In this document: in pieces, positions 22,903 through 37,937 of the stretch
Layout: each line of letters begins with the position of its first letter
Position numbering within the stretch: position 1 is the first letter of the stretch
NCBI RefSeq assembly: GCF_041320595.1
Contig: NZ_CP166625.1
Location: 1,499,501-1,563,500, forward strand
DNA length: 64,000 bases
Origin: Pleomorphomonas sp. PLEO
GTDB taxonomy: Bacteria > Pseudomonadota > Alphaproteobacteria > Rhizobiales > Pleomorphomonadaceae
Direction: 5' to 3'
Notes under the pieces: generated by a model
Told to the model about the DNA's origin: nothing
Databases searched by the model: none
Seen by the model: only the letters and a program-made list of their open reading frames with translations
Translations under genes and position numbers: made by a program

Positions 22903-25494
22903 ATGAGCATACTGTTGACCTCTCCTAAGCCGAGGGTTGAGGACAACGTGAAATTCATCGCTGATGAACGTTCCAGCCTAGATGGATTATCGTCCGATTT
23001 TGACGGATGGCTTCATGACCCGGCGTTTCCCGCGGTTTGCCTGGATGAAGCCGGCCTGATCCTCGACGTTAACGGCCTGTTCCTGAAGACCTTTGACGTG
23101 GTCGCGGCAACGGTGGTCGGCTGTCGTCTCGATAGCCTCGCGCCCGTCGAAACACATGCCCCGCTTGCCGCCTGTTTTGCCGCCCTCAAGGCCAATCCTC
23201 AGAAGACACGGCAGATGGACCTCTGCCTGCGCCTGCTCGGGGGCCGCCCGCGCTGGTTCCGCGCTGCCTTCTATGTTCCTCGCCGGATCGGTACGCCATC
23301 GGATCGGTTGCACCTGGTTGCTCAGCTGTGCGAAATCGACGATCTGACGACACGCGCCCAGGGGTTGGCAGACCTTGCCCAAGGCTGGAGCGAAGCGATG
23401 GGCGCGGCAAAGATCGGCATCTGGGACGCCGATCTTGTTTCGCGCGTCAACACCTTCTCGGACATGTGGTACCAGATCCGTGGGTTGCGGCCGGGCGATC
23501 CGACCCCGACCAAACACGATGATATCCTCAAGTTGATCCATCCGAGCGACCGTGCGCATGTGATGGAACAGTACGCTCTCCAGCAACTCGCCGATTTCCG
23601 GGAATGTCGGTACGAGTATCGCTGGAAGCATAGCGACGGCCGCTGGATCTGGATCGAGTGTCGCGGCTCGTGCGCGCAGAGGGTCGACGGCAAAGTCGTC
23701 CGCATTATCGGCTCGGATATCGACATCACCGAACGCAAGTTGGCCGAGGAGCGGCTATCACTCGCGACGAGCCGCCTGCAACTGGCCATGGAAGCGTCGC
23801 GAATTGGCGTCTTCGATGCCGATTTCAGTACCGGATACACCAACTGGGACGCACCGACGCGGGCGATCTATGGCGTTACCAACGACCAGCGGATCAAGTT
23901 TGGCGACCTATGGGAGAGCATGCTGCACCCCGAGGATCGCGATCGCGTTCTCAAGGCCATCGATGACCACATCGCAAGGCTCACACCTTACGGCAACCAG
24001 TTTCGGATCATCCGGCCCGATGGCAGCGTTCGCCATATCCGGACGCGCACGCTGCCCTTCATCGATGTCGACGGCAGCAAGCGAATGATCGGCGTCAACT
24101 GGGACGAGACCGACGACATCCTGCTGCGCCTCGATCTCGAGCGAGCCAAGACATTGGCCGAGGCCCGCAACCGCGAACTCGAAATTGCGAAGGCGGAGAT
24201 CGAGCGCATTGCCATGCTCGACCCGCTCACGGAATTGCCGAACCGCCGCTTTCTCGATCAGCGCATGTCGGTACTGGCTGCCCAAGGTTTCGACTGTGAA
24301 CACGGCCTCGCCATCCTGCATATCGATCTCGACCGCTTCAAGCAGATCAACGACACCTTCGGCCACAGCGTCGGCGATGCAGTGCTGCAACATGTCGGTC
24401 GACTGTTGCAAGACGAGGCGGGGGGCGACGGCCAGATCTTCCGCATCGGCGGCGACGAGTTCGTGATGGTCCGCCTGTTCGACGGCGATTTCCCCTCGCT
24501 CGAAGCCATGGCAACGCGGCTCGTCGAGGTTCTGCGCCGGCCGGTGACCGTGCATGGCTACGACTGCCGTTTCGGCGCCAGCATCGGCGTCGCCGTTGGC
24601 GTCGGCAAGGACATCGATCCGCAGCAGCTGCTGCTCAATGCCGACATCGGCCTCTACTGCGCCAAGAGCGAGGGCAAGAACCGCTGGGCGTATTTCCGGC
24701 GCGAATCGCACGACCGCATGATTCTGACCAAGCAGATCTCCGACGACATCCTACGCGGCCTCGAACGCGACGAGTTCAAGCCGTACTACCAGCTGCAGTT
24801 TCGGGCCGGGTCACTGGAGATCACCGGCATTGAGGCTCTGGCGCGCTGGCAGCACCCCGAACGCGGCATCCTGACGCCCGACAATTTCATCGTCATCGCC
24901 GACGAACTCGGCATTCTGAGCGAGATCGACGGCATCATCCTCGAAAAGGCGATCGCCGATTGCCAGCGGCTCGAACTGTCCGGCATCCACATCCCCAAGT
25001 GCTCGGTCAATGTCTCGGCCGGCCGGCTGCGCGATCCGCACTTGGCGGAACTGCTAAGTACCTTGCCGGCCCAGCGGTGCTCGTTGTCGTTCGAACTTCT
25101 CGAGTCGATCTTCCTCGACGAGTTGGAGGAGCAGGTCGCCATCAACATCGCGCATATTCGAGAGGCTGGCATCGGGATTGAGATCGACGACTTCGGCAGC
25201 GGTCACGCGTCGATCACCAGCTTGCTGCATTTGAGGCCGGACGTCATCAAGATCGATCGCCAGCTCATCAGCACCATTCCGACCTCCGCCGAGCGCCGCT
25301 CGCTGATCGGCGCCATCATCGAGATGGGGCATTCGCTGGGGGTGACGGTGGTCGGCGAAGGGGTCGAAACCAAGGATCACGCCTATTGGTTGCACATGCT
25401 GAAGTGCGACCTGTTGCAAGGCTTCGGACTGGCGCTTCCCATGCCCGCCGACCAACTCGCCGGCTTCATCCAGTCTGAGTCCTGGCGCCAGTAA
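22903..25494 (+). CDS. PAS-containing GGDEF-EAL cyclic-di-GMP protein
   Basis: An 863-residue cytoplasmic protein. A degenerate PAS-like N terminus (about 30-150) is followed by two PAS/PAC units (about 165-285, ending in GSDIDITERKLAEERL, and 295-410), a coiled coil, a GGDEF domain (DPLTELPNRRFLDQRM, then active-site RIGGDEFV) and an EAL domain (ITGIEALARWQHPERG, DDFGSGHASITSLLHL, VVGEGVET). Both catalytic signatures look intact, so the protein may make or degrade cyclic-di-GMP depending on the PAS input. There is no membrane segment. It stands alone between rpoD and the convergent MotB-like gene. Confidence 0.93.
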   Translation: MSILLTSPKPRVEDNVKFIADERSSLDGLSSDFDGWLHDPAFPAVCLDEAGLILDVNGLFLKTFDVVAATVVGCRLDSLAPVETHAPLAACFAALKANPQKTRQMDLCLRLLGGRPRWFRAAFYVPRRIGTPSDRLHLVAQLCEIDDLTTRAQGLADLAQGWSEAMGAAKIGIWDADLVSRVNTFSDMWYQIRGLRPGDPTPTKHDDILKLIHPSDRAHVMEQYALQQLADFRECRYEYRWKHSDGRWIWIECRGSCAQRVDGKVVRIIGSDIDITERKLAEERLSLATSRLQLAMEASRIGVFDADFSTGYTNWDAPTRAIYGVTNDQRIKFGDLWESMLHPEDRDRVLKAIDDHIARLTPYGNQFRIIRPDGSVRHIRTRTLPFIDVDGSKRMIGVNWDETDDILLRLDLERAKTLAEARNRELEIAKAEIERIAMLDPLTELPNRRFLDQRMSVLAAQGFDCEHGLAILHIDLDRFKQINDTFGHSVGDAVLQHVGRLLQDEAGGDGQIFRIGGDEFVMVRLFDGDFPSLEAMATRLVEVLRRPVTVHGYDCRFGASIGVAVGVGKDIDPQQLLLNADIGLYCAKSEGKNRWAYFRRESHDRMILTKQISDDILRGLERDEFKPYYQLQFRAGSLEITGIEALARWQHPERGILTPDNFIVIADELGILSEIDGIILEKAIADCQRLELSGIHIPKCSVNVSAGRLRDPHLAELLSTLPAQRCSLSFELLESIFLDELEEQVAINIAHIREAGIGIEIDDFGSGHASITSLLHLRPDVIKIDRQLISTIPTSAERRSLIGAIIEMGHSLGVTVVGEGVETKDHAYWLHMLKCDLLQGFGLALPMPADQLAGFIQSESWRQ

Positions 25495-26851: not shown

Positions 26852-27742
26852 TCAGCGCCGCGCCAGCACTGTCAGCTCAGTCACCAGAACATCGAACACC
26901 GCCCGGCAGCGGAGGCTGCCGCTGAGGTCTTCGTGCATCACCACCCAGGTCTCCAGATCGAGGCTGAAGGCGTCGGGCAGCACGCGCCGAAGGTTGGGGT
27001 CGGCCTCGGCGATGGTGGTCTGGCAGATGCCGATGCCGAAGCCGGCGCGGATGGCGGCGAGCTGGGCGACGTCGCTGTCGACGCGCAGGGCAAAGTTGCC
27101 GCGGCCGAGCGCCGGATAGCGCTGGGCAACGGCCCGGATCGCCGGCGTTTCCGTGTCATAGCCGATCAGGTCGTGGCGTCCGAGATCGTCGAGGCTCGTC
27201 GGCACGCCACGCTGGGTGAGATAGTCCTGGTGGGCGTGCAAGCCCACCGGAAAGACGCCGACGCGCTTGGCCAAGAGCGCCTGTTGCTCGGGGCGGACCA
27301 TGCGGATGGCGATATCGGCCTTGCGCTTCAGAAGGTCGTCGACGGCGTTGGACAGCGTGAGTTCGATGGTCAACGCCCGATAGCGCCGGCGCAGCCTCGT
27401 CAGGATGGCCGGTAGGTGAACGATGCCGACCACCTCGCTGGCGCTGATCCTCACCGTGCCGTCCACCTGGCCGATCCGGCCCTCGGCGGTGCGCCGCAGC
27501 GCGGCGCTGGTGGAGGCCATCAGGTCGGCGAAGGGTTTTAGCTCCATCGCCGCGTCGGTGGGGGAGAGGCCGCGCGCGGTGCGCAGGAACAGCGGGGTGC
27601 CGACCGCTTCTTCCAGCGCGTCGATGTGGCGGGCAATGCTCGGCTGCGTCAGGCCAAGCGCCCGCGCCGCGCCGGACAGCGATCCCTCGCTGAGCACGGC
27701 GTTGAAGGTGCGGTAGAGATCCCAGCTCGGTTCTTGCTTCAT
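26852..27742 (-). CDS. LysR family transcriptional regulator
   Basis: A 296-residue regulator with an N-terminal winged helix-turn-helix (SLSGAARALGLTQPSIARHI, DALEEAVGTPLFLRT) and a C-terminal substrate-binding-like effector domain (about 90-296). It is divergent from the epimerase-like gene that starts at 27833. The 90-bp space between them holds both promoters and AT-rich T-N11-A-like sequence typical of LysR targets. It most likely controls that neighbour, activating it when an unidentified ligand binds. Confidence 0.93.
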   Translation of the reverse strand: MKQEPSWDLYRTFNAVLSEGSLSGAARALGLTQPSIARHIDALEEAVGTPLFLRTARGLSPTDAAMELKPFADLMASTSAALRRTAEGRIGQVDGTVRISASEVVGIVHLPAILTRLRRRYRALTIELTLSNAVDDLLKRKADIAIRMVRPEQQALLAKRVGVFPVGLHAHQDYLTQRGVPTSLDDLGRHDLIGYDTETPAIRAVAQRYPALGRGNFALRVDSDVAQLAAIRAGFGIGICQTTIAEADPNLRRVLPDAFSLDLETWVVMHEDLSGSLRCRAVFDVLVTELTVLARR

Positions 27743-27832
27743 CTATTTCCGTATAGCATATGAACTTTTATAGGCAATTTCGTTTATATCTAGGAAAGCC
27801 CATCTTCACGTCATCAACCGATGGAGACGGAC

Positions 27833-28834
27833 ATGAATAGCAAGATCGCACTGGTTCTCGGCGCTACCGGCGGTATCGGTGGCGAGGTTGCTTCCCGGCT
27901 GGTCTCAAGTGGCTGGCAGGTGCGGGCGCTCAACCGCAACCCGGAGCGTGCCGGCAAGGACGGCCGCGTCACCTGGATCAAGGGCGACGCGATGGCGGCG
28001 GCCGACGTCATGGCAGCGGCCGAGGGCGTGTCGCTGATCGTCCACGCCGTCAACCCGCCCGGCTATCGCGACTGGGACAAGCTGGTGCTGCCGATGCTGG
28101 ACAACACCATTGCCGCCGCCAAGGCCAATGGCGCCCGCATCATCCTGCCCGGCACCGTCTACAACTACGGCCCCGACGCCTTTCCGGTGATTGCTGAGAC
28201 CGCGCCGCAGAACGCCCTGACCCGCAAGGGCAAGATCCGCGTCGAAATGGAGCGGCGGCTGAGACAGGCCACAGAGAGCGGCGAGGCCAAGGTGCTGATC
28301 GTCCGGGCCGGCGATTTCTTCGGCCCCAAGGCGGCCAACAACTGGTTCAGCCAGGGTCTGGTGAAGCCCGGCAGCCGCCCCCGGTCGATCAGCTATCCCG
28401 GCAAGCGCGGCACCGGTCATCAATGGGCCTATCTGCCGGACGTGGCGGACATCATGGTTCGCCTCGCCGAGCACGACGGCCTCGACGCTTTCGCCACCTT
28501 CCACATGGAAGGGCATTGGGATGCCACGGGCACGGCGATGACCGAGGCGATCCGTCGCGCGCTCGATGACCCGTTCATGGCCGTCAAGCCCATGCCCTGG
28601 TGGCTGTTGCGCCTTGCTTCGCCCTTCGTGACGACCCTGAGGGAGCTGATGGAGATGAAGTACCTCTGGGAACAGCCGGTCCGGCTAGACAACGCCAAAC
28701 TGGTGGCGACCCTCGGTGGCGAACCGCGCACGCCGCTCGACGAGGCCGTGAGGGCGACCTTGGCCGGGGTCGGATGCCTTCAAGAGAAGGCTCCAGCTCG
28801 GGCCGAGAGCAAGCCCAGCTTGTCCGGGATTTGA
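27833..28834 (+). CDS. NAD-dependent epimerase/dehydratase-like protein
   Basis: A 333-residue Rossmann-fold protein of the extended/atypical SDR type: nucleotide loop LVLGATGGIGGEVA at the N terminus, then an ILPGTVYNYGP segment in which Tyr could act in the active site, and RAGDFFGPKAANNWF. The ATG at 27833 has GGAG 6 bp upstream; a start four codons earlier is possible. It is divergent from a LysR gene. The family usually oxidises or epimerises nucleotide sugars or other small alcohols; the true substrate is not evident. Confidence 0.85.
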   Translation: MNSKIALVLGATGGIGGEVASRLVSSGWQVRALNRNPERAGKDGRVTWIKGDAMAAADVMAAAEGVSLIVHAVNPPGYRDWDKLVLPMLDNTIAAAKANGARIILPGTVYNYGPDAFPVIAETAPQNALTRKGKIRVEMERRLRQATESGEAKVLIVRAGDFFGPKAANNWFSQGLVKPGSRPRSISYPGKRGTGHQWAYLPDVADIMVRLAEHDGLDAFATFHMEGHWDATGTAMTEAIRRALDDPFMAVKPMPWWLLRLASPFVTTLRELMEMKYLWEQPVRLDNAKLVATLGGEPRTPLDEAVRATLAGVGCLQEKAPARAESKPSLSGI

Positions 28835-29076
28835 AAGCGCCCCCGGGGCAGCCGGGCGATGCTCCAAGAGCGCGCGGCGTCTATCGGATCGGCCGCCAAG
28901 CCGGACTTAGGCCATCGCAAGAACGATGGCTTCGGCTGGACAAACAAAACGCCATGACGGAAGAATGAGGTTGCGATGGACGGAGGCCGCCGTCCTGGGA
29001 GGGACGGAAGCGGCGGCCGTGACCGGCATTTTCGATTGCCGTGTCGTTTGTGCTGCCGCCAAGGGTGGGGTTGGTC

Positions 29077-30966
29077 ATGGTGAAGCGCTCGAGCGATGTC
29101 GGCGTGGCACGCGAGGAGGTCATTGCCTCCTTGCCGAAGCGGCTGGCTCAGGAGCGTCCGCTGATCGGTTCCTCCGGACGGTTTGCCATGGGGGCGGCGA
29201 TCGGAGCGGGACTGGTGGCGCGCTCGGCCGTGCGCGGTGGCGCCGATTTCATCCTGGCGCTGAGTGCCGGGCGGGTTCGGGTCATGGGCGCGCCGTCGGT
29301 CATCTCGATGCTTCCCATCCACGAAAGCAATGCCTTCGTGGCGGACTTCGCTAGGGCCGAGATACTGGGGCGCGTCGACGTCCCGGTGCTGTTTGGCGCG
29401 TCGACCATCGATCCGCGCACCGATATTCCGGCCCTCGTCCGACAAGTCGCGTCATGGGGGTTCGATGGGGTCATCAACTTCCCCAGCGTCATTCTGCTCG
29501 ACGATGAAGCGCGGGCCCGGATGGCCCGGGCCGGCCTTGGCTGGCAGCGCGAGATCGAGTTGATCTCAGCGGCGAAGGACGCCGGTCTCATCGCCGCCGC
29601 CTACGTTCGCACGGCCCAGCAGGCGACCGAGATGGCGGCCGCCGGCAGTCGGCTCGTTTGCGTCAATTTCGGCTGGACGGCCGGCGGTTTTGCCGGAGAG
29701 CCGGCGAAGCAGGACACGGCCGGCGCGGCCGCCGAGGCGAAGGCGGTGTTCCGGCAGGTCCGAAAGCTCAATCCCAAGACGCTGTGTTTTGTTGAAGGGG
29801 GGCCGATCGTCACGCCACAGGCGGCGGCGGAGGTTTGCCAGGCCAGCAACGCCGACGGCTATATCGCCAGCTCCACGCTCGATCGCATTCCGCTGGAAAC
29901 GGCGGTCTTCGATGCCGCCGTGGCATTCAAGGCGGTCGCCGGCCTGACGCGCAAGGTCGAGGCGCTGAAAAACGAGATGCTGGGCGATGGCCGCCGGTTC
30001 GGCCTGTTCGGGCGATCGGCGGCGATGACCCAACTGGTGCGCATGATCGAACGCCTCGCCGACAGCGATCTGACGGTGATGATCCAAGGGGCCAGCGGCA
30101 CCGGCAAGGAACTGGTGGCGCAGGCGCTTCACCGGGGCAGTCGTCGGCGCGACTGCCCGTTCGTCGCCGTCAACTGCGCCGCCATCCCCCGCGATCTCAT
30201 GGAAAGCGAGTTGTTCGGGTTCGAGCGCGGCGCCTTTACCGGCGCCAACCGGTCGCGCATCGGACGCTTCGAGGAAGCCAATGACGGAACGTTGTTCCTC
30301 GATGAGATCGGCGATCTCGATCTGTCGCTGCAGGGCAAGCTGTTGCGCGTTCTCGAAAGCGGCGTCATCGAACGGCTCGGCAGCAACCAGCCGCATCGCC
30401 TGAACGTCCGGGTGCTGTGCGCCACGCATCGCGACCTCAGGGCCATGAGCGCCGACGGTCGCTTCCGCGAGGATCTGTTCTTTCGCCTGAGCCAGCTGGA
30501 CGTCCGCGTTCCCGCCCTCGCCGAGCGGATCGATGACATTCCGCTGTTGGCCCAGAAATTCCTGTCGGACTTCGCCTCTCGCCATGACGCAAATCCCAAG
30601 GTCATCGACAACATCGCCTATCAGTTGCTGATCGGTCATTCCTGGCCCGGCAATGTCCGCGAGCTGCGCAATGTGGTGCAACAGGCGGCGATCCTTACGG
30701 ACGGCGAAGTAATCGGCGCCTCCGACCTGGTGCCTTTGCTCGGCAAAAAGGCCGATGGTCTCGTGGTGGCCCGGCTTCATGCCCCGGCGTTCGCCAACGA
30801 GGGGCTGGGAAAGGACAAATCCTCCCCCGTCACTGCCGAAAACGAGCGGGACTGGATCCTGGAAGCGCTCCGCCGCAATCGCTTCCGGCGTGGCGCCGCG
30901 GCGCAAGATCTCGGCCTGTCGCGCAAGACCCTTTACAACAAGATCCGCCAATACGGGATCGAGTGA
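29077..30966 (+). CDS. sigma-54-dependent activator with a PEP-hydrolase/TIM-barrel sensor domain
   Basis: A 629-residue protein. Residues about 15-270 form a PEP_hydrolase (PF09370, formerly TIM-br_sig_trns) barrel with GADFILALSAGR, GFDGVINFPSV and CFVEGGPIVTP, paralogous to the enzyme encoded at 33104-33937. Residues about 305-540 are the AAA+ sigma-54 interaction domain: Walker A QGASGTGKELVA, the intact GAFTGA loop that contacts sigma-54, Walker B LFLDEIGDLD, and the arginine-finger region. The C terminus is a Fis-type DNA-binding helix (GAAAQDLGLSRKTLYNKIRQ). There is no receiver, so the barrel probably senses a metabolite. A consensus -24/-12 promoter lies before the operon at 31873. 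The start at 29077 follows GGTGGGG; GTG 29041 is an alternative. Confidence 0.9.
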   Translation: MVKRSSDVGVAREEVIASLPKRLAQERPLIGSSGRFAMGAAIGAGLVARSAVRGGADFILALSAGRVRVMGAPSVISMLPIHESNAFVADFARAEILGRVDVPVLFGASTIDPRTDIPALVRQVASWGFDGVINFPSVILLDDEARARMARAGLGWQREIELISAAKDAGLIAAAYVRTAQQATEMAAAGSRLVCVNFGWTAGGFAGEPAKQDTAGAAAEAKAVFRQVRKLNPKTLCFVEGGPIVTPQAAAEVCQASNADGYIASSTLDRIPLETAVFDAAVAFKAVAGLTRKVEALKNEMLGDGRRFGLFGRSAAMTQLVRMIERLADSDLTVMIQGASGTGKELVAQALHRGSRRRDCPFVAVNCAAIPRDLMESELFGFERGAFTGANRSRIGRFEEANDGTLFLDEIGDLDLSLQGKLLRVLESGVIERLGSNQPHRLNVRVLCATHRDLRAMSADGRFREDLFFRLSQLDVRVPALAERIDDIPLLAQKFLSDFASRHDANPKVIDNIAYQLLIGHSWPGNVRELRNVVQQAAILTDGEVIGASDLVPLLGKKADGLVVARLHAPAFANEGLGKDKSSPVTAENERDWILEALRRNRFRRGAAAQDLGLSRKTLYNKIRQYGIE

Positions 30967-30972
30967 GCGATT

Positions 30973-31650
30973 TCAGCCGGTGGGCTTCTTCGCCTCGCGC
31001 CCGCTGACCGCCCACTCGACGGCGCCGTCGCTGGCGGCGATCAGTGGGGCCAGGATGGGGCCATAGTCCGGATGGCGGAACGCCAGAACGGTGGCGCCCG
31101 GCGCGGTTTGGCGGATGGTCCGGACCACGTCCTCTGCCATAGCGGCGGCGTCGCTCCTGTTCGACGAAGCACCGTCGATCACGGCCGGATAGACGAGCAT
31201 CTGACGGATGCCCGTCGCCGCCGCCAGGCGAGCCTGCTCGGCCGTCACCACCACGGCCATGACGTTCAGGCCCTGCTCGGCCGCCTGCGCCAGGGTTGCC
31301 AACTCCGCCGCATAGCCGGCGCCGGCATGGCTCAGGGCCTGGGCGATGCCGTGGGTGATCCCGGCCACCGTCGGAAGGTTGATCACCGCGCGGACGCCCG
31401 CCTCCCGAAGCAGGCCGATGAGCATCGGGGCCGGTCGAAATGGGTCGGCGGCAAGGATGCCGGCATAGACCTCGTCGTCATCGCCGAGCGAGCCGGCCGC
31501 CGCCAGCATGGCGCCATTGGCATCGCCGATCGGCAGGCAGCCGACCAGGTCGGCCTCTTCGGCGCTGAGGCCGGCGAAGTGAGGGCAGACGATCTGAAAT
31601 CCGCTGGAACGCCGGGTGACCCGATCGACGATTTCCCCGCTTTTCAACAT
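30973..31650 (-). CDS. short PEP-hydrolase family (TIM-barrel) protein
   Basis: A 225-residue protein. It shares the barrel pattern of its two neighbours (GVRAVINLPTVAGITHGIAQ, AAELATLAQAAEQGLNVMAV) but is about 50 residues shorter than the enzyme at 33104 and lacks the N-terminal GGGAGTGLS loop and the C-terminal CHGGPISEP loop. It is therefore probably a non-catalytic or altered relative. The ATG at 31650 follows GAGGGAGAGG. It converges on the sigma-54 activator (6-bp gap) and is divergent from the UPF0261 gene, so it sits between regulator and operon. Its role is unknown; it could modulate the enzyme or the sensor. Confidence 0.68.
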   Translation of the reverse strand: MLKSGEIVDRVTRRSSGFQIVCPHFAGLSAEEADLVGCLPIGDANGAMLAAAGSLGDDDEVYAGILAADPFRPAPMLIGLLREAGVRAVINLPTVAGITHGIAQALSHAGAGYAAELATLAQAAEQGLNVMAVVVTAEQARLAAATGIRQMLVYPAVIDGASSNRSDAAAMAEDVVRTIRQTAPGATVLAFRHPDYGPILAPLIAASDGAVEWAVSGREAKKPTG

Positions 31651-31713
31651 GCCTCTCCCTCATGGTTTCCGGTTTGCCAGCGCTCGGTCGGCTCGTGGCG
31701 CGCGCATTAACGA

Positions 31714-31760
31714 ATGGGTAAAAACGGGTACATTTGAGTAGCTTTCTCCTCTTTACCCAT
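31714..31760. promoter_or_regulatory. inverted repeat, candidate upstream activating sequence
   Basis: A perfect 9-bp inverted repeat, ATGGGTAAA (31714-31722) and TTTACCCAT (31752-31760), with a partial GGGTAC half-site between. Its centre is about 66 bp upstream of the -24 element, a usual place for a Fis-type sigma-54 activator dimer. Binding is inferred from position and symmetry only. Confidence 0.6.
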
Positions 31761-31801
31761 CGGCCGTGGCTGAAACGCCTGATTTTTGCTGGTTTGCCTC
31801 A

Positions 31802-31816
31802 TGGCACGGCACTTGC
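31802..31816 (+). promoter_or_regulatory. sigma-54 (-24/-12) promoter
   Basis: TGGCAC-N5-TTGC is an exact match to the core sigma-54 consensus with correct spacing (GG at 31803-31804, GC at 31815-31816). It lies 57 bp before the start of the UPF0261 gene, and the neighbouring gene encodes a sigma-54 activator. Confidence 0.85.
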
Positions 31817-31872
31817 GTTCTTTTTAATCAGGGCGGTGAGGAAAGTCCGCCTCTTTTCGGGAGGAAATCTAG

Positions 31873-33087
31873 ATGCCATCGTCATCCGATGCTGGCCCGG
31901 GCGTAGCTTACGTCGCGGGGACCTTTGACACCAAGGGGCCGGAGCTCACTTTCATCGCCGATTGCTTGCGGGCGGCCGGCGTTCGCGCCGTCACCGTGGA
32001 TCTCGGCACCACGGATACCGCGTCTTCGGCGGACATTTCGGCGGCGACCGTTGCCGGACATCATCCCGAGGGGGCCGGAGCCGTCTTCACCGGCGATCGT
32101 GGATCGGCCATCGCGGCGATGACGCTGGCGTTTCGTCGCTTCGTCACCTCGCGCACCGACCTCGGCGGTCTGATCTCGGCCGGCGGGTCCGGTGGCACGG
32201 CGCTGGTGACGCCGGCCATGCGCGATCTCGCCGTCGGCGTTCCCAAGGTGATGGTATCCACCATGGCGTCGGGCGATGTCCGTCCGTATGTCGGCCCGTC
32301 CGACATCTGCATGATGTATTCGGTGACCGACGTTTCCGGCATCAACCGCATCTCCGAGCAGGTTCTTTCCAACGCCGCCAACGCGCTTGCCGGCATGATC
32401 GTTCACCATCGTCGGCCGAGCGCCGCCGGCAAGCCGGCCATCGGCCTGACGATGTTCGGCGTCACCACGCCCTGTGTCCAGGGCGTTACCGCCGCCTTGG
32501 CCGACCGCTACGATTGTCTGGTGTTCCACGCCACCGGCACCGGCGGTCAATCGATGGAAAAGCTGGCCGACTCCAGGATGTTCGCCGGCGTGATCGACAT
32601 TTCGACCACTGAGGTCTGCGACCTGTTGATGGGCGGCGTTCTCGCCTGCACCGAGGATCGCTTCGGCTCGATCATTCGCACCAAGCTGCCCTACGTGGTG
32701 TCGTGCGGCGCCTTGGACATGGTGAACTTCGGCGCGCCGGAAACGATCCCCGCCTACTACAAAAGCCGCCGCTTCTACCCGCACAACCCGCAAGTGACGC
32801 TGATGCGCACGACGGCCGAGGAAAACGCCCGCATGGGTGTCTGGATCGGCGAGCGGCTGAACCGGATGGAAGGTCCGGTGCGTCTGCTGATCCCGGAGGG
32901 TGGAGTCTCGATGATCGACCAGCCCGGACAGCCCTTCTACGACCCCGAGGCGGACAAGGCGCTGTTCGATGCGCTGGAGCGGACCGTCGTCCAGACGGCG
33001 AAGCGCCGCCTCATCCGCCGGCCCGAGCACATCAACGATGCCGGTTTCATTCAGGCGCTGGTCGCCAACTTCCTCGAAATAGTCTGA
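31873..33087 (+). CDS. Tm-1-like ATP-binding domain protein (UPF0261)
   Basis: A 404-residue UPF0261 protein: [20 protein letters not shown] at the N terminus, [63 protein letters not shown] and [17 protein letters not shown], all typical for the family. It is homologous to the N-terminal, ATP-binding half of the tomato Tm-1 protein, which inhibits tomato mosaic virus RNA replication; the ancestral metabolic role is not established. It starts the sigma-54 operon (GGAGG before ATG) and is followed after 16 bp by the homologue of the Tm-1 C-terminal half, so the two products probably act together. Confidence 0.9.
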
Positions 33088-33103
33088 TCAAGGAGCGTTT
33101 ATC

Positions 33104-33937
33104 ATGCCTAAATTCACCCGTGCGGCCCTGCTCGAAAAGTACCGCAAGATGATCGCCGCTCGCGATCCGATCGTCGGCGGTGGCGCGGGAACGGGGTTGT
33201 CGGCCAAATGCGAGGAGGCCGGCGGCATCGATCTGATCGTCATCTACAATTCCGGCCGCTATCGCATGGCCGGGCGGGGATCGCTGGCCGGCTTGATGGC
33301 CTATGGCAACGCCAACGACATCGTCGTCGAGATGGCGTCCGAAGTGTTGCCGGTGGTCAAGCACACGCCGGTGCTGGCCGGTGTCAACGGCACTGATCCC
33401 TTCATGCTGCTGGAGCCCTTCCTGCGCAAGCTCGACGCCCTCGGCTTCTCGGGCGTGCAGAACTTCCCGACGGTCGGCCTGATCGACGGCATCTTCCGGG
33501 CCAATCTCGAAGAGACCGGCATGGGATACGGCCTTGAGGTCGACATGATCGCCAAGGCGCACGAACTCGACATGCTGACCACGCCGTATGTGTTCGATCC
33601 CGATCAGGCTCAGGCGATGGCCAAGGCCGGTGCCGACATCATCGTCTGCCATATGGGCCTGACGACCGGTGGCGCCATCGGCTCCCAGACGTCGCGCAAG
33701 CTCGAGGACTGCCCCAAGCTGATCAACGAGTGGGCGGAAGCGGCGCTCAAGGTCCGTAAGGACGTGATCGTCCTCTGCCATGGCGGGCCGATTTCCGAGC
33801 CGGATGACGCCAACTACATCCTGAAGAACTGCCCGAACTGCCACGGCTTCTATGGCGCTTCCAGCATGGAGCGCCTGCCGACCGAACGGGCGCTTACCGA
33901 ACAGACCAAGCGCTTCAAGACGATCCGTCGCAGCTGA
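33104..33937 (+). CDS. phosphoenolpyruvate hydrolase family (TIM-barrel) protein
   Basis: A 277-residue TIM-barrel protein of the PF09370 family. Landmarks are [50 protein letters not shown], a likely general-acid region [12 protein letters not shown], and [11 protein letters not shown], followed by [12 protein letters not shown]. The family is named for predicted PEP hydrolysis, but the reaction has little direct proof that I know of. It corresponds to the C-terminal half of plant Tm-1. The upstream UPF0261 gene is 16 bp away, with AAGGAG before this ATG, so the two are co-translated from one mRNA. Confidence 0.9.
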
Positions 33938-33970
33938 CGCCGGATCGTCCGCCGCGGGATCTACCTGCTT

Positions 33971-33995
33971 CCGTCTGGCCGTTTAGGCCGGACGG
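33971..33995. other. intercistronic hairpin
   Basis: A 10-bp GC-rich stem (CCGTCTGGCC with GGCCGGACGG, one G-T pair) with a five-base loop lies between the PEP-hydrolase gene and the DUF1097 gene. There is no T run, so it may stabilise the upstream mRNA or cut down read-through rather than end transcription. Confidence 0.55.
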
Positions 33996-34082
33996 GAGGA
34001 GCCGGTCGCATGGCCGGTGGAAGCAGGCGGCGTGCCCGCGACAGGAGGTCTTCAGCACACGTTAAAAACGGGAGGAAACATC

Positions 34083-34649
34083 ATGAGCAACAACGCAGCA
34101 GCCGTCGAGACACCTGGGCCGGTGGTGATCAACCGGGTTCCGCTCTGGCTGGCCGTGGCCCTCACGGTCGTCATATCGCTGCCATTCGGCCTGTGGTTTG
34201 GAAAATACAACTTCACGCTCTGGTGCGCGTTCATCGCCTGGGCGGAGTATTTCGCGCTCGGCGCCAAGCCGAGGGCCATCCCGACGATCCTCATCAGCTT
34301 CGGCTACGCGGCGGTGCTGACCGGTCTTTCGCTGGCCATCATCCCGGTGTTCGGCTTCCTGCCGAACATGGTGACGCCGGGCGATATTCCCACGGCGGCT
34401 TCGCTGTTCGTCGTCGTGGCCTTCATGGTCTATTCGATGAAATGGTCGCATCACTTCATCGATGGCAGCCTGCCGTTCTTCAACGGCATCTCGATGGGGC
34501 TGGCCGTCTATTTCACCAGTTCCTACCCGCAATTGGGGCCGGCGGCCCTGATGCCGATCACCGCCGCCATCTGGGCGACCGCGATGGCCGCCTTCGGCAT
34601 CTTGCTCGGCGTCATCACCGTCGCTTTGCAGTTTCCCGCAAAGCGCTAG
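34083..34649 (+). CDS. DUF1097 family membrane protein
   Basis: A 188-residue protein with about five to six hydrophobic segments (LWLAVALTVVISLPFGLWF, IPTILISFGYAAVLTGLSLA, AASLFVVVAFMVYS, ISMGLAVYFTSSY, AAIWATAMAAFGILLGVI). It matches the DUF1097 pattern (E. coli YcdZ-like). The ATG at 34083 follows GGGAGGAAAC. It ends the sigma-54 operon, 146 bp after the TIM-barrel gene, and could carry a substrate or product of the two soluble enzymes across the inner membrane. The function is unknown. Confidence 0.8.
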   Translation: MSNNAAAVETPGPVVINRVPLWLAVALTVVISLPFGLWFGKYNFTLWCAFIAWAEYFALGAKPRAIPTILISFGYAAVLTGLSLAIIPVFGFLPNMVTPGDIPTAASLFVVVAFMVYSMKWSHHFIDGSLPFFNGISMGLAVYFTSSYPQLGPAALMPITAAIWATAMAAFGILLGVITVALQFPAKR

Positions 34650-34707
34650 ACGCCCACAACGTTGAGCCAGCAACCTCGTCTAACCAGAACGAGGCATGAA
34701 GCAAGTC

Positions 34708-34756
34708 GACCGCCCGTGGCCGTATGCACCAACATAGGGGCCGGTCACGGGCGGTC
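34708..34756. terminator. possible bidirectional terminator hairpin
   Basis: An 11-bp perfect stem (GACCGCCCGTG at 34708-34718, complement at 34746-34756) stands between the convergent DUF1097 and RND genes. No long T run follows on either strand, so the call rests on the stem and its location. Confidence 0.5.
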
Positions 34757-34838
34757 GAAATCGTTCAGGACATGAACGCGAGAGTCGCCTCGAACCATGC
34801 TCCGAAAGCGCGCACTTCGGGTCGGGGCATCCTTGCAA

Positions 34839-37800
34839 TCACTCCGCCGGTGACGCTTCCGCCGCCGGGGCTTGCTTTTTGGCGAACAACGAACGGAGCT
34901 TCTCGCAGCCGACGAAGATCACCGGCGTGATGTAGAGCGTCAGCAACTGGCTGACCAGGAGGCCGCCGACCACCGCCACGCCGAGCGGCTGGCGCAGCTC
35001 GGCGCTGGCACCGTGGCCCATGGCGATCGGCAGAGTGCCGAGCAGGGCGCAGAAGGTGGTCATCATGATCGGCCGGAAGCGGCGCGTCGCCGCCTCGTGG
35101 ATGGCCTCCATCGGTTTGGCGCCGTCCTCACGCATCAGCTGCAGGGCGACGTCGACCATCATGATGGCGTTCTTCTTGACGATGCCGATCAGCATCAGGA
35201 TGCCGATCAGGGCGATGATGGACAGGTCCATGCCGGTGAGCTTCAGGGCGAGCAGCGCGCCAAGCGCCGCCGAGGGCAGGCCCGACAGGATGGTCAGCGG
35301 ATGGATGAAGCTCTCGTAGAGCACGCCGAGCACCACGTAGATGGTGAGGATGGCGGCGATGATCAAAAGCGGCGTGTTGGACGTCGACTGGGCGAACACC
35401 TGCGCCGTACCGGCGAAGGCGGTGAACACGGTGGTCGGCAGGCCGATGTCCTGCTTGATGGCGTCGATGCGGCTGGTGGCGGCACCGAGCGACACGCCTT
35501 GCGGCAGGTTGAAGGAGACGGTGATCGAGGTGAGCTGTCCCGTCTGGTTGACGGTGACCGGGCCGGACTGCCGCTCGACGGTGGCAAACGCGGTCAGCGG
35601 CACCAGCGTTCCGGTGGTGCTGGAGCGGACGCGCAGCTCGGACAGCCGGTCGTTGCTCCAGTCGAGCGTCGAGGCGTATTCGAGGATCACCGAATAACTG
35701 TCGCCGGTCGATTGGATGTCGGCGACCGATTGCTCGCCGAAGCCGTCGCCCAGCGTCTTGCGCAGGGTGGCGGCGTTGATGCCGAAGCTTTCGGCCCGGT
35801 CGCGGTCGATGATGATGCGGGCCTGCAAAGCGTTGTTCTGAAGGTCGGTGGCGACGTCGGTGAAGGTGGCGGTGTCCTGGGCCATGGCCAGGCGCAGCCG
35901 TTCGGCCCAGTCGGTGAGCTGGCTGGCGTCGAGCGATTGCACGACGAGCTGATACTGGCTCTGGCTGGAGCGACCGCCGAGGCGCAGGCTCTGAACCGGG
36001 GTGACGAAGCTCTGTAGGCCGACGATGTGGCCGAGCGACTGGCGCAGCCGGCCGACCACCACGTCGAGCGACTCACGCTGAGCCGCTGGTTTCAGCTGCA
36101 CGTTCATACTGGCCGAATTAATCTGCGAGCTATCGACCCGAGCATTGACGTGGTCGACGGCCGGATCGCGGCCGACCACGTCGGCGGCCTGCTTCTGGAG
36201 GAGCGCCATGGCGTCGTAGGAAATGTCCTGGCGCGCCTGGGTGGAGATGGAGAGCTGGCCGATGTCCTCCTGCGGCAGGAAGCTCTTGGGCAGGTCGGCG
36301 AACAGCCAAGCGGAGCCGGCGAAGGTACCCAGGAACACCAGCACCATGGGCAGCGGATGGCGCAGCGTCCAACCGACGCTTTTCGAATAGCCCTTGAGCA
36401 CCTTGGAGAAGCCGATATCGAACAGGCCGGCGGGGCTGTAACGGGACGGCGGCGTGCCGATGTTGGCGGGCAGGCGGGCGGCCAACATCGGCGTCACGGT
36501 GAGCGACACCAGCGCCGAGGCGGTGATGGCCAGCGACACCACCATGCCGAACTCGGTGAACAGCCGGCCGACCACGCCGCCCATCAACAGGATGGGCATG
36601 AAAACGGCGATCAGCGACAGCGACATCGAGATGATGGTGGAGGTGACCTCGCCCGAGCCCTTGAAGGCGGCCTCCATCGGGCTCTCGCCCTGTTCGATGT
36701 GGTGGACGATGTTCTCCAGCATGACGATGGCGTCGTCGACGACGAGGCCGACCGATAGCGTCAGCGCCAGGAGCGACATGTTGTCGATGGAATAGCCGAG
36801 CACATACATCGCCCCGAAGGCGATCAGGATCGACAAGGGCACGGCGATGGCCGGAATGGCGGTGGTGTAGAGTTTGCCGAGGAACAGGTAGATGACGAGG
36901 ATGACGAGGCCGATGGTGAGAAACAGCGTGAATTTGACGTCGGCGACGGCGGCGCGGATCGCCACCGAGTTGTCGTTCATCAGCGACACGTTCACCCCGG
37001 CCGGCAACTGGCTGGTGATGGCTGGCAGCGCCGCCTTGATGGCGTCCACCACCTCGACGGTGTTGGCGTCCGGCTGGCGTTGAACGGCCAGTGTGATGGC
37101 GCGCGTGCCGTCATACCAGCTTGCCTGATCGCGGTTCTCGACGCTGTCGATCACGTTGGCGACGTCGCCCAGGCGGACAGGACCGGCCTTGGTGGTGGAG
37201 ACGATCAGCGGACGGAAGCCGGCGGCCGAAGTGAATTGGGTTGGCGCGTCGAGTGTGATGGTCTGGGCCGCATTGTCCATGCTGCCGACCGGCGACTGGT
37301 TGTTGGCATTGGCGATGGCGGTGGAGAGCTGGTCGAGGCCGATGCCGCGGGCGGCGAGGCGGTCGGGGTCGGCCTCGACGCGGACGGCGTATTTCTGCGA
37401 GCCGAAGATCTGCGCCTGGGCGACGCCGTTGATGGTGGAGATGGCCGGCGACAGTACGTTCTGAGCCAGCGAGTCGAGCTCGGTGAGTGGCACCGTCGGC
37501 GAGGTGACCGAGAGCAGCAGGATCGGCGTATCGGCCGCGTTGACCTTCCGGTAGCTCGGGTCGGAGGTCATGTTGTCGGGCAGCTTGCGGCGGGCGACGT
37601 CGATGGCCGACTGTACGTCGGCGGCGGCGCTGTCGATGCTGCGGGAGAGCTCGAATTGCAAAGTGATGGATGTGGAGCCGAGCGAGGAGCGGGCCGAGAT
37701 GGTGTCGATGCCGCCGATGGTCTGGAATTGCTTGATCAGCGGCGTCGCCACCGCCGTGGCCATGGTCTCGGGCGAGGCGCCGGACAGTTGGGCCGACACG

Positions 37801-37937
37801 GTGATGGTGGGGAAGTCGACGCGCGGCAGGGCAGCCACCGGCAACAGGCGATAGGCGAAGAAGCCGGCGAGCGACAGGCCGATCGCCAGGAGAATGGCGG
37901 CGACCGGCCGCCGGATGAACAGGGCGGGAAGGTTCAT
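34839..37937 (-). CDS. RND efflux permease (MdtB/MdtC/AcrB-like)
   Basis: A 1032-residue inner-membrane transporter of the hydrophobe/amphiphile efflux family. Twelve transmembrane helices and two large periplasmic loops are in the usual order: N-terminal FIRRPVAAILLAIGLSLAG, PVAALPRVDFPTITVSAQLS, helix 4 region TLSVGLVVDDAIVMLENI with the proton-relay Asp pair, and the late GIVKKNAIMMVDVALQLMRE. The style (short N terminus, MNLPALFIRRPV) is closest to MdtB/MdtC, exporters of drugs and bile salts. It follows the adaptor gene with a 4-bp overlap (ATGA). No outer-membrane channel gene is adjacent, so a TolC-like partner must be encoded elsewhere. Confidence 0.96.
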   Translation of the reverse strand: MNLPALFIRRPVAAILLAIGLSLAGFFAYRLLPVAALPRVDFPTITVSAQLSGASPETMATAVATPLIKQFQTIGGIDTISARSSLGSTSITLQFELSRSIDSAAADVQSAIDVARRKLPDNMTSDPSYRKVNAADTPILLLSVTSPTVPLTELDSLAQNVLSPAISTINGVAQAQIFGSQKYAVRVEADPDRLAARGIGLDQLSTAIANANNQSPVGSMDNAAQTITLDAPTQFTSAAGFRPLIVSTTKAGPVRLGDVANVIDSVENRDQASWYDGTRAITLAVQRQPDANTVEVVDAIKAALPAITSQLPAGVNVSLMNDNSVAIRAAVADVKFTLFLTIGLVILVIYLFLGKLYTTAIPAIAVPLSILIAFGAMYVLGYSIDNMSLLALTLSVGLVVDDAIVMLENIVHHIEQGESPMEAAFKGSGEVTSTIISMSLSLIAVFMPILLMGGVVGRLFTEFGMVVSLAITASALVSLTVTPMLAARLPANIGTPPSRYSPAGLFDIGFSKVLKGYSKSVGWTLRHPLPMVLVFLGTFAGSAWLFADLPKSFLPQEDIGQLSISTQARQDISYDAMALLQKQAADVVGRDPAVDHVNARVDSSQINSASMNVQLKPAAQRESLDVVVGRLRQSLGHIVGLQSFVTPVQSLRLGGRSSQSQYQLVVQSLDASQLTDWAERLRLAMAQDTATFTDVATDLQNNALQARIIIDRDRAESFGINAATLRKTLGDGFGEQSVADIQSTGDSYSVILEYASTLDWSNDRLSELRVRSSTTGTLVPLTAFATVERQSGPVTVNQTGQLTSITVSFNLPQGVSLGAATSRIDAIKQDIGLPTTVFTAFAGTAQVFAQSTSNTPLLIIAAILTIYVVLGVLYESFIHPLTILSGLPSAALGALLALKLTGMDLSIIALIGILMLIGIVKKNAIMMVDVALQLMREDGAKPMEAIHEAATRRFRPIMMTTFCALLGTLPIAMGHGASAELRQPLGVAVVGGLLVSQLLTLYITPVIFVGCEKLRSLFAKKQAPAAEASPAE

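Follow-up and report, generated by a model that had tools for sequence, protein, structure and literature searches.

Sigma-54 activators of the DmpR/XylR type carry a small-molecule sensor domain that controls their AAA+ domain, and they drive a catabolic operon from a -24/-12 promoter. The same architecture, an N-terminal domain (ligand-binding in the DmpR/XylR type) followed by an AAA+ domain and a Fis-type helix-turn-helix (HTH), is found in an activator encoded in the genome of Pleomorphomonas sp. PLEO, within the 64,000-nucleotide stretch that we analysed and call the window (contig NZ_CP166625.1, positions 1,499,501 to 1,563,500). Unlike the DmpR/XylR systems, the sensor of this activator is a paralogue of an enzyme from the neighbouring operon, a stand-alone small barrel protein (hereafter SHORT) is its constant companion, and the conserved operator is a direct repeat. 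Partner proteins dedicated to one sigma-54 activator are known from NifL-NifA and PspA-PspF, which resemble the SHORT-activator pair by analogy of role only; to our knowledge, neither NifL nor PspA is a paralogue of its activator's own sensor domain. The nearest precedent for control of such a regulator by enzyme subunits is DhaR, whose activity is set by subunits (DhaK and DhaL) of the enzyme that DhaR controls. DhaK and DhaL, however, are the working enzyme, whereas SHORT is the product of a separate gene beside the enzyme pair, and here an enzyme-like domain is also fused to the regulator. That PF09370 domains occur in sigma-54 activators is known at the level of domain databases. What appears to be new here is an activator of the sigma-54 type whose presumed metabolite sensor is, unusually, derived from an enzyme, and which is always accompanied by a truncated barrel protein.

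E. coli DhaR resembles sigma-54 activators, has a defective GAFTGA motif and is described as sigma-70 dependent (PMC3162934). Loss of GAFTGA and action at sigma-70 promoters have also been reported or proposed for NtrC of Caulobacter and Rhodobacter capsulatus and for TyrR, HupR and VpsR (PMC10274813, PMC3162934). The family described here is like this group in that 20 of its 27 members lack GAFTGA; it differs in that the loss can be traced inside one conserved operon in which operator, sensor and DNA-binding helix are retained, and in that the window's activator keeps the motif. Two of the operon's genes belong to UPF0261 and PF09370 (termed TBST), which the 2016 paper on the origin of Tm-1 presents as separate, co-evolving microbial genes (PMC5028733); in the parts of that paper covered here, 'sigma' and 'transcription' do not occur and 'operon' appears only in the reference list. 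Unlike the plant Tm-1-like proteins and microbial TBST pairs as described, UPF0261 and PF09370 stand here under a dedicated regulator. Within the titles and abstracts of the open-licence literature (subscription papers lie outside this scope), we found no description of this regulator, SHORT or operator, no assigned reaction for UPF0261 or PF09370 proteins, and no assay of phosphoenolpyruvate or phosphonopyruvate hydrolase activity for a PF09370 protein, whose family name is an annotation. The features of the locus, in window coordinates, are as follows.

29077..30966, + strand: activator of 629 residues, PF09370 barrel, sigma-54 AAA+ domain and Fis-type HTH (Pfam); a GTG at 29041 is an alternative start; 26 other distinct loci have homologues
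29173..29934, + strand: sensor barrel of the activator, residues 33-286, without equivalents of the enzyme-invariant Tyr48, His183 and His226
30229..30246, + strand: GAFTGA loop of the AAA+ domain, intact, also found in 6 of the 26 other loci
30841..30954, + strand: Fis-type HTH, with the recognition-helix motif RKTLYN invariant in 27 of 27 activators
30973..31650, - strand: SHORT, stand-alone small PF09370-like barrel of 225 residues, convergent with the activator gene, 6 bp between them
31716..31731, - strand: putative operator, direct repeat GTACCCGTTTTTACCC (consensus TTACCC-N4-TTACCC), conserved across loci
31752..31758, + strand: third, inverted half-site TTTACCC, within the right arm of an inverted repeat
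31802..31817, + strand: predicted sigma-54 -24/-12 promoter TGGCACGGCACTTGCG, 55 bp before the UPF0261 start
31873..33087, + strand: UPF0261 protein of 404 residues, like the Tm-1 N-terminal domain (Pfam, NF002673)
33104..33937, + strand: PF09370 enzyme of 277 residues, closest solved relative 2p10 (Mll9387)
34083..34649, + strand: DUF1097 membrane protein of 188 residues (Pfam)
34706..34757, + strand: strong predicted hairpin 3' of the DUF1097 gene, possibly the operon end

An earlier note on this DNA, made from the letters alone, had named an activator with a PF09370-type barrel, GAFTGA and Fis helix, a short barrel protein, the operon genes and a -24/-12 site. Pfam matches agree with every gene in identity and position, and together with a site scan they confirm each of these elements. 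The activator matches PF09370 (240.8 bits, residues 33-286), Sigma54_activat (229.7 bits), the AAA lid and HTH_8 (39.4 bits, cut-off 22), and its Walker A (QGASGTGKE) and Walker B (LFLDEIGD) motifs are intact. With GAFTGA, both Walker motifs, a Fis-type HTH, a -24/-12 site and rpoN in the genome, it has the sequence features of a bacterial enhancer-binding protein. The UPF0261 protein scores 204.2 and 300 bits for its N and C domains, passes the NCBIfam equivalog NF002673 (649.5 bits, cut-off 520) and matches the Tm-1 structures 3wry (E-value 1.3e-96) and 3wrw (2.3e-96). The enzyme covers PF09370 at full length (440.9 bits, profile positions 3-267) and matches 2p10 with an E-value of 2.5e-133. 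The two are encoded by separate genes 16 bp apart, not by a plant-style fusion. The DUF1097 match is modest (29.9 bits, cut-off 24.6), and the 145 bp between enzyme and DUF1097 genes (33938-34082) contain a strong predicted hairpin, a possible attenuation or mRNA processing site. No Rfam match at an E-value of 0.1 or below was found across 28800-35200. In a profile search, all three PF09370 matches of the genome lie within this locus.

To judge how far the arrangement is conserved, we assembled 27 distinct alphaproteobacterial loci (the window included), and activator and SHORT occur together in all of them. The UPF0261 and enzyme genes are present in 25 of the 27; the other two loci (L043 and L063) stop at contig edges first and were counted for activator and SHORT only. 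Across 297 genomes of the order, PF09370 is present in 96, and in 15 of these a PF09370 barrel is fused to the activator. SHORT was found in 15 of these 15 genomes and in none of the 81 with PF09370 but no activator, where both order-wide searches (PF09370 and SHORT) scored no more than the 8 to 10 top candidates of each genome. The SHORT profile had 12 rows, with 3 of the 15 activator genomes outside it; among the candidates scored, it reached at least 97 bits in exactly the 15 activator genomes, and all remaining matches, at 95.3 bits or less, came from PF09370 enzymes, from the barrels of the activators themselves or from fragments in G171, apart from one weak match in G265 (21.4 bits). A phylum-wide sample of 398 genomes yielded one more locus, outside the order (G310, identical with L062 and counted once). 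A search of named genomes from SHORT alone, using one conserved stretch as pattern, returned 17 loci, and an activator was near in 17 of 17, at 108 bp or less in 16 and at 1.3 kb in L058. Five repeats among the named genomes were dropped (L047, L049, L050, L053 and L057, equal to L034, L033, L039, L037 and L038, respectively). L047 is the locus of Pleomorphomonas oryzae DSM 16300.

The 27 loci come from Pleomorphomonadaceae, Ancalomicrobiaceae, Azospirillaceae, Stappiaceae, Aurantimonadaceae, Acetobacteraceae/Roseomonadaceae, Rhodospirillaceae and further families, and a genome of the same genus (G292) also holds the locus. The activator and SHORT genes are convergent and -37 to +108 bp apart in 23 of them, L040, L041, L044 and L058 being the exceptions. 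As controls served 20 hand-picked loci, each about 19 kb long and taken from among the 81 PF09370 genomes without the activator; neither SHORT nor the activator is present in these 20 UPF0261-PF09370 loci. A further 25 shorter control loci overlap the 20 in part and include L023, from a genome with an activator elsewhere. Viral contigs searched with the window's SHORT as query gave no relative of it. That the unit might be specific to this genome is ruled out by the loci in other genomes of the order, in the phylum sample and in the named genomes. The dedicated unit that had been proposed is supported, since the neighbourhood is not confined to this genome: activator and SHORT recur in 26 further loci, 25 of the 27 also have UPF0261 and the enzyme, and the conserved operator described below occurs in none of the 20 activator-less controls.

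We compared sensor and enzyme barrels by aligning 25 enzymes with 27 sensors, using the numbering of the window's enzyme. Tyr48, His183 and His226 are invariant in all 25 enzymes and absent from all 27 sensors, so that both invariant histidines expected of a catalytic PF09370 member are replaced in every sensor barrel. Other positions are retained: Asp43, Arg54, Glu145, Tyr162, Gly227-228, Ser253, Arg257 and Glu261 in 27 of 27 sensors, and Asn71, Asp98 and Asn120 in 25, 23 and 26. Of the enzymes' 61 strictly invariant columns, 37 are conserved in 20 or more of the 27 sensors, including 20 that no sensor has lost, and 6 are absent from every sensor. From this residue pattern we infer a barrel that was kept for binding and from which catalysis was removed. 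In a tree of the barrels, a single branch with 100/100 support splits the 27 sensors from the 25 enzymes (L044, L062 and L040 form long branches). Judged by this one branch, sensor and enzyme are homologous, old paralogues that parted before these loci diverged and have travelled together. The idea that both descend from one protein is correct as to homology, and the tree places their split before the divergence of these loci. That the sensor binds the same ligand as the enzyme is plausible.

SHORT matches PF09370 only at profile positions 52-201 (64.1 bits, cut-off 33.8). Its AlphaFold2 model, built from 27 sequences, is an eight-stranded triosephosphate isomerase (TIM) barrel with a predicted local distance difference test score (pLDDT) of 90.7, and the best solved match of the model is again 2p10, at a template-modelling (TM) score of 0.74. 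The window's SHORT lacks the N-terminal GTG motif, HGGPI and GASS and thereby the motifs of a catalytic PF09370 member, and the L040, L041 and L044 proteins appear to lack the last strands. A sensor hidden Markov model outscores an enzyme model on SHORT in 24 of 27 cases, weakly, with a median margin of only 6.8 bits. The locus holds three PF09370-type barrels (sensor, SHORT and enzyme) and not two; the earlier note had recorded the short barrel and had missed its constant pairing with the activator. Because SHORT always occurs with the activator and is absent from otherwise complete enzyme operons, it would seem to be a dedicated regulatory partner of the activator.

The intergenic region between SHORT and the operon contains two blocks that are kept through otherwise diverged sequence in the alignment, TGGCACGNNNNTTGC and a TACCC/GGGTA repeat. 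The first belongs to the predicted promoter, the only site in the 64 kb scoring at least 11/12 with GG and GC cores. As the exact 15-mer TGGCACGNNNNTTGC has 6 copies in the 5.48-Mb genome versus 3 for its reversed control, such a site is not rare by itself, and it is its position and conservation that are telling. The second block lies in an inverted repeat with two perfectly paired 9-bp arms, ATGGGTAAA (31714-31722) and TTTACCCAT (31752-31760). These arms had been noted before and are real, but what is conserved widely is a direct repeat lying within the inverted one, GGGTAAAAACGGGTA; the inverted third half-site occurs only in near relatives. With at most one mismatch allowed, 23 of 27 loci have TTACCC-N4-TTACCC, a repeat of 10-bp period, at -120 to +160 bp relative to the start of SHORT, compared with a mean of 0.01 loci in 100 Markov shuffles. 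The four loci outside this count are L039, with two mismatches; L062, whose exact site immediately precedes its operon; L046, with sites at distances of 0.4 and 6.8 kb from SHORT; and L041, where a one-mismatch site lies 10 kb off and UPF0261 is preceded by two-mismatch sites only. The repeat was found in 0 of the 20 activator-less UPF0261-PF09370 loci (about 19 kb each) and in none of the 25 shorter, partly overlapping controls. Exact TACCCRNNNTTACCC occurs at 2 sites in the genome, one of them at this locus, and relaxed matches are no commoner than those of a reversed control (12 vs 27), so the repeat looks like a one-target operator. The other exact site is at C1:250271-250285. With SHORT start codons chosen by hand, 15 of the 20 loci without GAFTGA have an operator that touches or adjoins the SHORT start (-2 to +15 bp); in 6 of the 7 loci with the motif, the operator is placed 32-81 bp ahead of that start.

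Seven of the 27 activators have an intact GAFTGA (those of the window, L033, L034, L035, L039, L048 and L051); in the other 20 it is deleted or scrambled. Among these 20, the Walker A lysine is lost in 17 and kept in 3, and the DE pair of Walker B is kept in none. A -24/-12 site of at least 11/12 within 1.5 kb before SHORT is present in exactly the 7 GAFTGA loci and in none of the 20 others; for those of the latter among L033-L046 the scan covered the whole locus, and for L052-L063 only the 1.5-kb stretch. Loss of rpoN as the cause of GAFTGA loss is ruled out, rpoN being present in 27 of 27 host genomes. In the AAA+ tree (outgroup of 7 other activators from the same genome, as 7 of 10 could be aligned and 3 were omitted), the 20 GAFTGA-less proteins group together with 99/100 support, the long branches L040, L044 and L062 being placed unsurely. 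We therefore rejected reading the 7/7 versus 0/20 association as 27 independent points; the grouping suggests that the joint loss of GAFTGA and the strong sigma-54 site was probably one evolutionary switch and not many. The recognition-helix motif, the operator and the sensor all persist across it. The term sigma-54 locus, as originally applied, holds for the window's clade (7 of 27) and, to judge from the 20 relatives that lost GAFTGA and show no strong sigma-54 promoter, fits that clade only. Five Stappia/Aurantimonas loci (L036, L037, L038, L055 and L059), whose activators lack GAFTGA, keep TGGCACG of the -24 element and have lost the -12 GC, and their intergenic site looks like a decaying sigma-54 promoter; no convincing sigma-70 promoter could be pinned down in these five. 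Precedents for GAFTGA-less activators acting at sigma-70 promoters have been described (PMC10274813, PMC3162934).

The loci also differ in their transport genes. A complete five-gene Liv-type ATP-binding cassette (ABC) system lies between operator and UPF0261 in 14 loci, and a partial one at the contig end in L043 and L063. In six GAFTGA loci (the window, L033, L034, L039, L048 and L051) no Liv-type genes were seen, and DUF1097 follows the enzyme instead. The simplest reading of these layouts is that DUF1097 replaced an ABC importer for the same substrate, and L035, with GAFTGA, a sigma-54 site and Liv genes together, is by its gene content an intermediate state. The activator-less controls have Liv-type genes in 12 of 20 loci and DUF1097 in 0 of 20. 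MalK-type ABC genes lie close by in L040, L044, L045 and L046, of which L045 and L046 also encode a binding protein of Liv type; none of our transport queries gave a match in L041. L045 and L046 carry a divergent UPF0261-PF09370 subfamily, with an enzyme about 38% identical to the window's, and have an FAD_binding_2 oxidoreductase and the MalK-type system as neighbours, joined by a PfkB kinase in L045 and a HAD hydrolase in L046; these two loci likely combine a different substrate with the same type of regulator. For the solute-binding proteins of three Liv-type systems, the nearest match is 4zpj, followed by a group of binders, presumably aromatic-acid binders of Rhodopseudomonas, and more weakly by urea binders; we assign no substrate. 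The L061 permeases and ATPases score higher on Urt than on Liv models, but below cut-offs. DUF1097 is rare, being present in 9 of 289 genomes of the class, and the window's member, which shares 18-23% identity with five others of the class, belongs to a divergent subfamily; its predicted structure has low confidence (pLDDT 55.5). E. coli YcdZ/NupT, of the same Pfam family, is a predicted inner-membrane transporter of the CytR regulon, proposed as such on other grounds (PMC3454398). A transport role for DUF1097 here would fit this, and the occurrence of DUF1097 in place of a Liv-type ABC system is an independent context clue that agrees with the YcdZ proposal (PMC3454398). Unlike YcdZ/NupT, the window's protein is divergent and tied to UPF0261-PF09370, and nucleosides are not implied.

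Taken together, we think it somewhat probable that the locus is a self-contained catabolic control unit with an enzyme-derived sensor, an operator-bound activator and SHORT as regulatory partner. The steps proposed here build on features that can be read from the sequences themselves: anatomy, conservation, co-occurrence, promoter, operator and residue losses. A small molecule would be imported by DUF1097, or in sister loci by a Liv/Urt-type ABC transporter, and processed by UPF0261 and the PF09370 enzyme. The activator's barrel would bind this substrate or a pathway intermediate without turnover, as expected from the loss of two invariant histidines and the retention of many other invariant positions. 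The activator would occupy the TTACCC-N4-TTACCC operator, and, once its barrel is liganded, would drive the operon from the -24/-12 promoter through ATP-powered remodelling of sigma-54 polymerase. SHORT, produced divergently from the same intergenic region, would most likely dock on the sensor barrel and hold the activator off when ligand is absent. A bolder version is possible but tentative: the three same-fold barrels may form a closed metabolite switch made of a working enzyme, a catalytically dead sensor copy and a cut-down SHORT as built-in anti-activator. As the operator touches or abuts the SHORT start in most GAFTGA-less loci, the regulator, when bound, could repress SHORT too; the resulting double-negative loop would respond sharply and possibly in a bistable way. 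In most lineages the AAA+ motor has decayed and the same switch would work without sigma-54; if this is true, the switch logic outlived the promoter class on which it was built.

Several observations weigh against the control unit as just described. SHORT keeps Asp69, Asn91, Pro93 and Glu116 in 27 of 27 sequences and Asn45 in 26, which correspond by eye to Asp98, Asn120, Pro122, Glu145 and Asn71 of the enzyme, and 14 of the 27 have a histidine in the apparent His183 column. These residues may leave room for a catalytic or ligand-binding role. SHORT could accordingly be a small metabolic enzyme or ligand carrier of the pathway, tied to the activator because the regulated version of the operon needs it, a reading that we regard as rather unlikely. 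The complete eight-stranded barrel model close to 2p10 speaks for it, as do the distance correlations, which do not set SHORT apart from the enzymes: a comparison of distance matrices (SHORT versus sensor, AAA+, enzyme and UPF0261) had tied SHORT to the regulator, but the gap between SHORT-sensor and SHORT-enzyme correlations vanishes when L044-L046 are removed (bootstrap interval -0.06 to 0.15). Against it, there are UPF0261-PF09370 operons that lack SHORT (it was found in 0 of 81 activator-less genomes by their best candidates and in 0 of 20 control loci), the L040, L041 and L044 members appear to be without the last strands, and the window's SHORT has neither the GGPI nor the GASS motif of the enzymes. 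Regarding the sensor, the catalytic status of the lost histidines is deduced from their invariance, and 24 of the 61 enzyme-invariant columns are conserved in fewer than 20 sensors, so that the pocket of the sensor may by now have a different specificity. In addition, 4 of the 7 Pleomorphomonas members searched have no PF09370 match.

The operator raises a further objection: activators of this class are mostly known to bind inverted repeats, and a direct repeat is an uncommon site for them. Tandem repeats in direct orientation, with about 10 bp from one unit to the next, typify the sites of OmpR-type proteins and not those of Fis-type HTH activators, and the TTACCC repeat might be bound by another regulator, for instance a global OmpR-type protein, with the activator using a different site. 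We judge this to be distinctly unlikely: the repeat accompanies the activator in 23 of the 27 loci, in families whose neighbouring genes differ, and occurs in none of the 20 activator-less loci; the genome has just 2 exact TACCCRNNNTTACCC sites, one of them here; the recognition-helix motif of the activator is invariant; and the activator is the only regulator gene that we noticed in all loci, although no systematic search for others was made. Least probable in our view is that the sensor barrel is a structural relic that senses no pathway ligand, with activity determined only by SHORT or by the level of expression. Several sensors have long branches and the AAA+ domain has decayed in 20 of 27 relatives, which shows a family that tolerates decay, but 20 enzyme-invariant positions are kept in all 27 sensors, those with decayed AAA+ domains included, which argues for continuing selection on the barrel.

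The proposed control unit makes a nutrient-uptake pathway and its control directly testable. Proteins of UPF0261 and PF09370 are found in bacteria and as far as plants (tomato Tm-1). The sensor domain would be expected to hold the right metabolite and not to consume it, which offers a ready ligand screen. The transporter partner, whether a Liv/Urt-type ABC system or DUF1097, bounds the chemistry of the pathway, and the short operator could be used for a reporter. The family also records how one sigma-54 regulator lost its motor and yet retained its sensor, its DNA-binding helix and the operator.

The neighbouring genes were inspected as well. Upstream of the activator lies a divergent pair of a LysR-type regulator (26852-27742, - strand) and an SDR-family reductase (27821-28834, + strand). 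Close homologues of this pair adjoin the unit only in the Pleomorphomonas relatives L033, L034 and L048, so it is probably separate. A large protein further upstream (22903-25494, + strand) reads by eye as a PAS-GGDEF-EAL cyclic-di-GMP enzyme. Directly past the operon is an RND efflux pump (34839-37937, - strand; ACR_tran, 967.7 bits), which is kept in L033 and L034.

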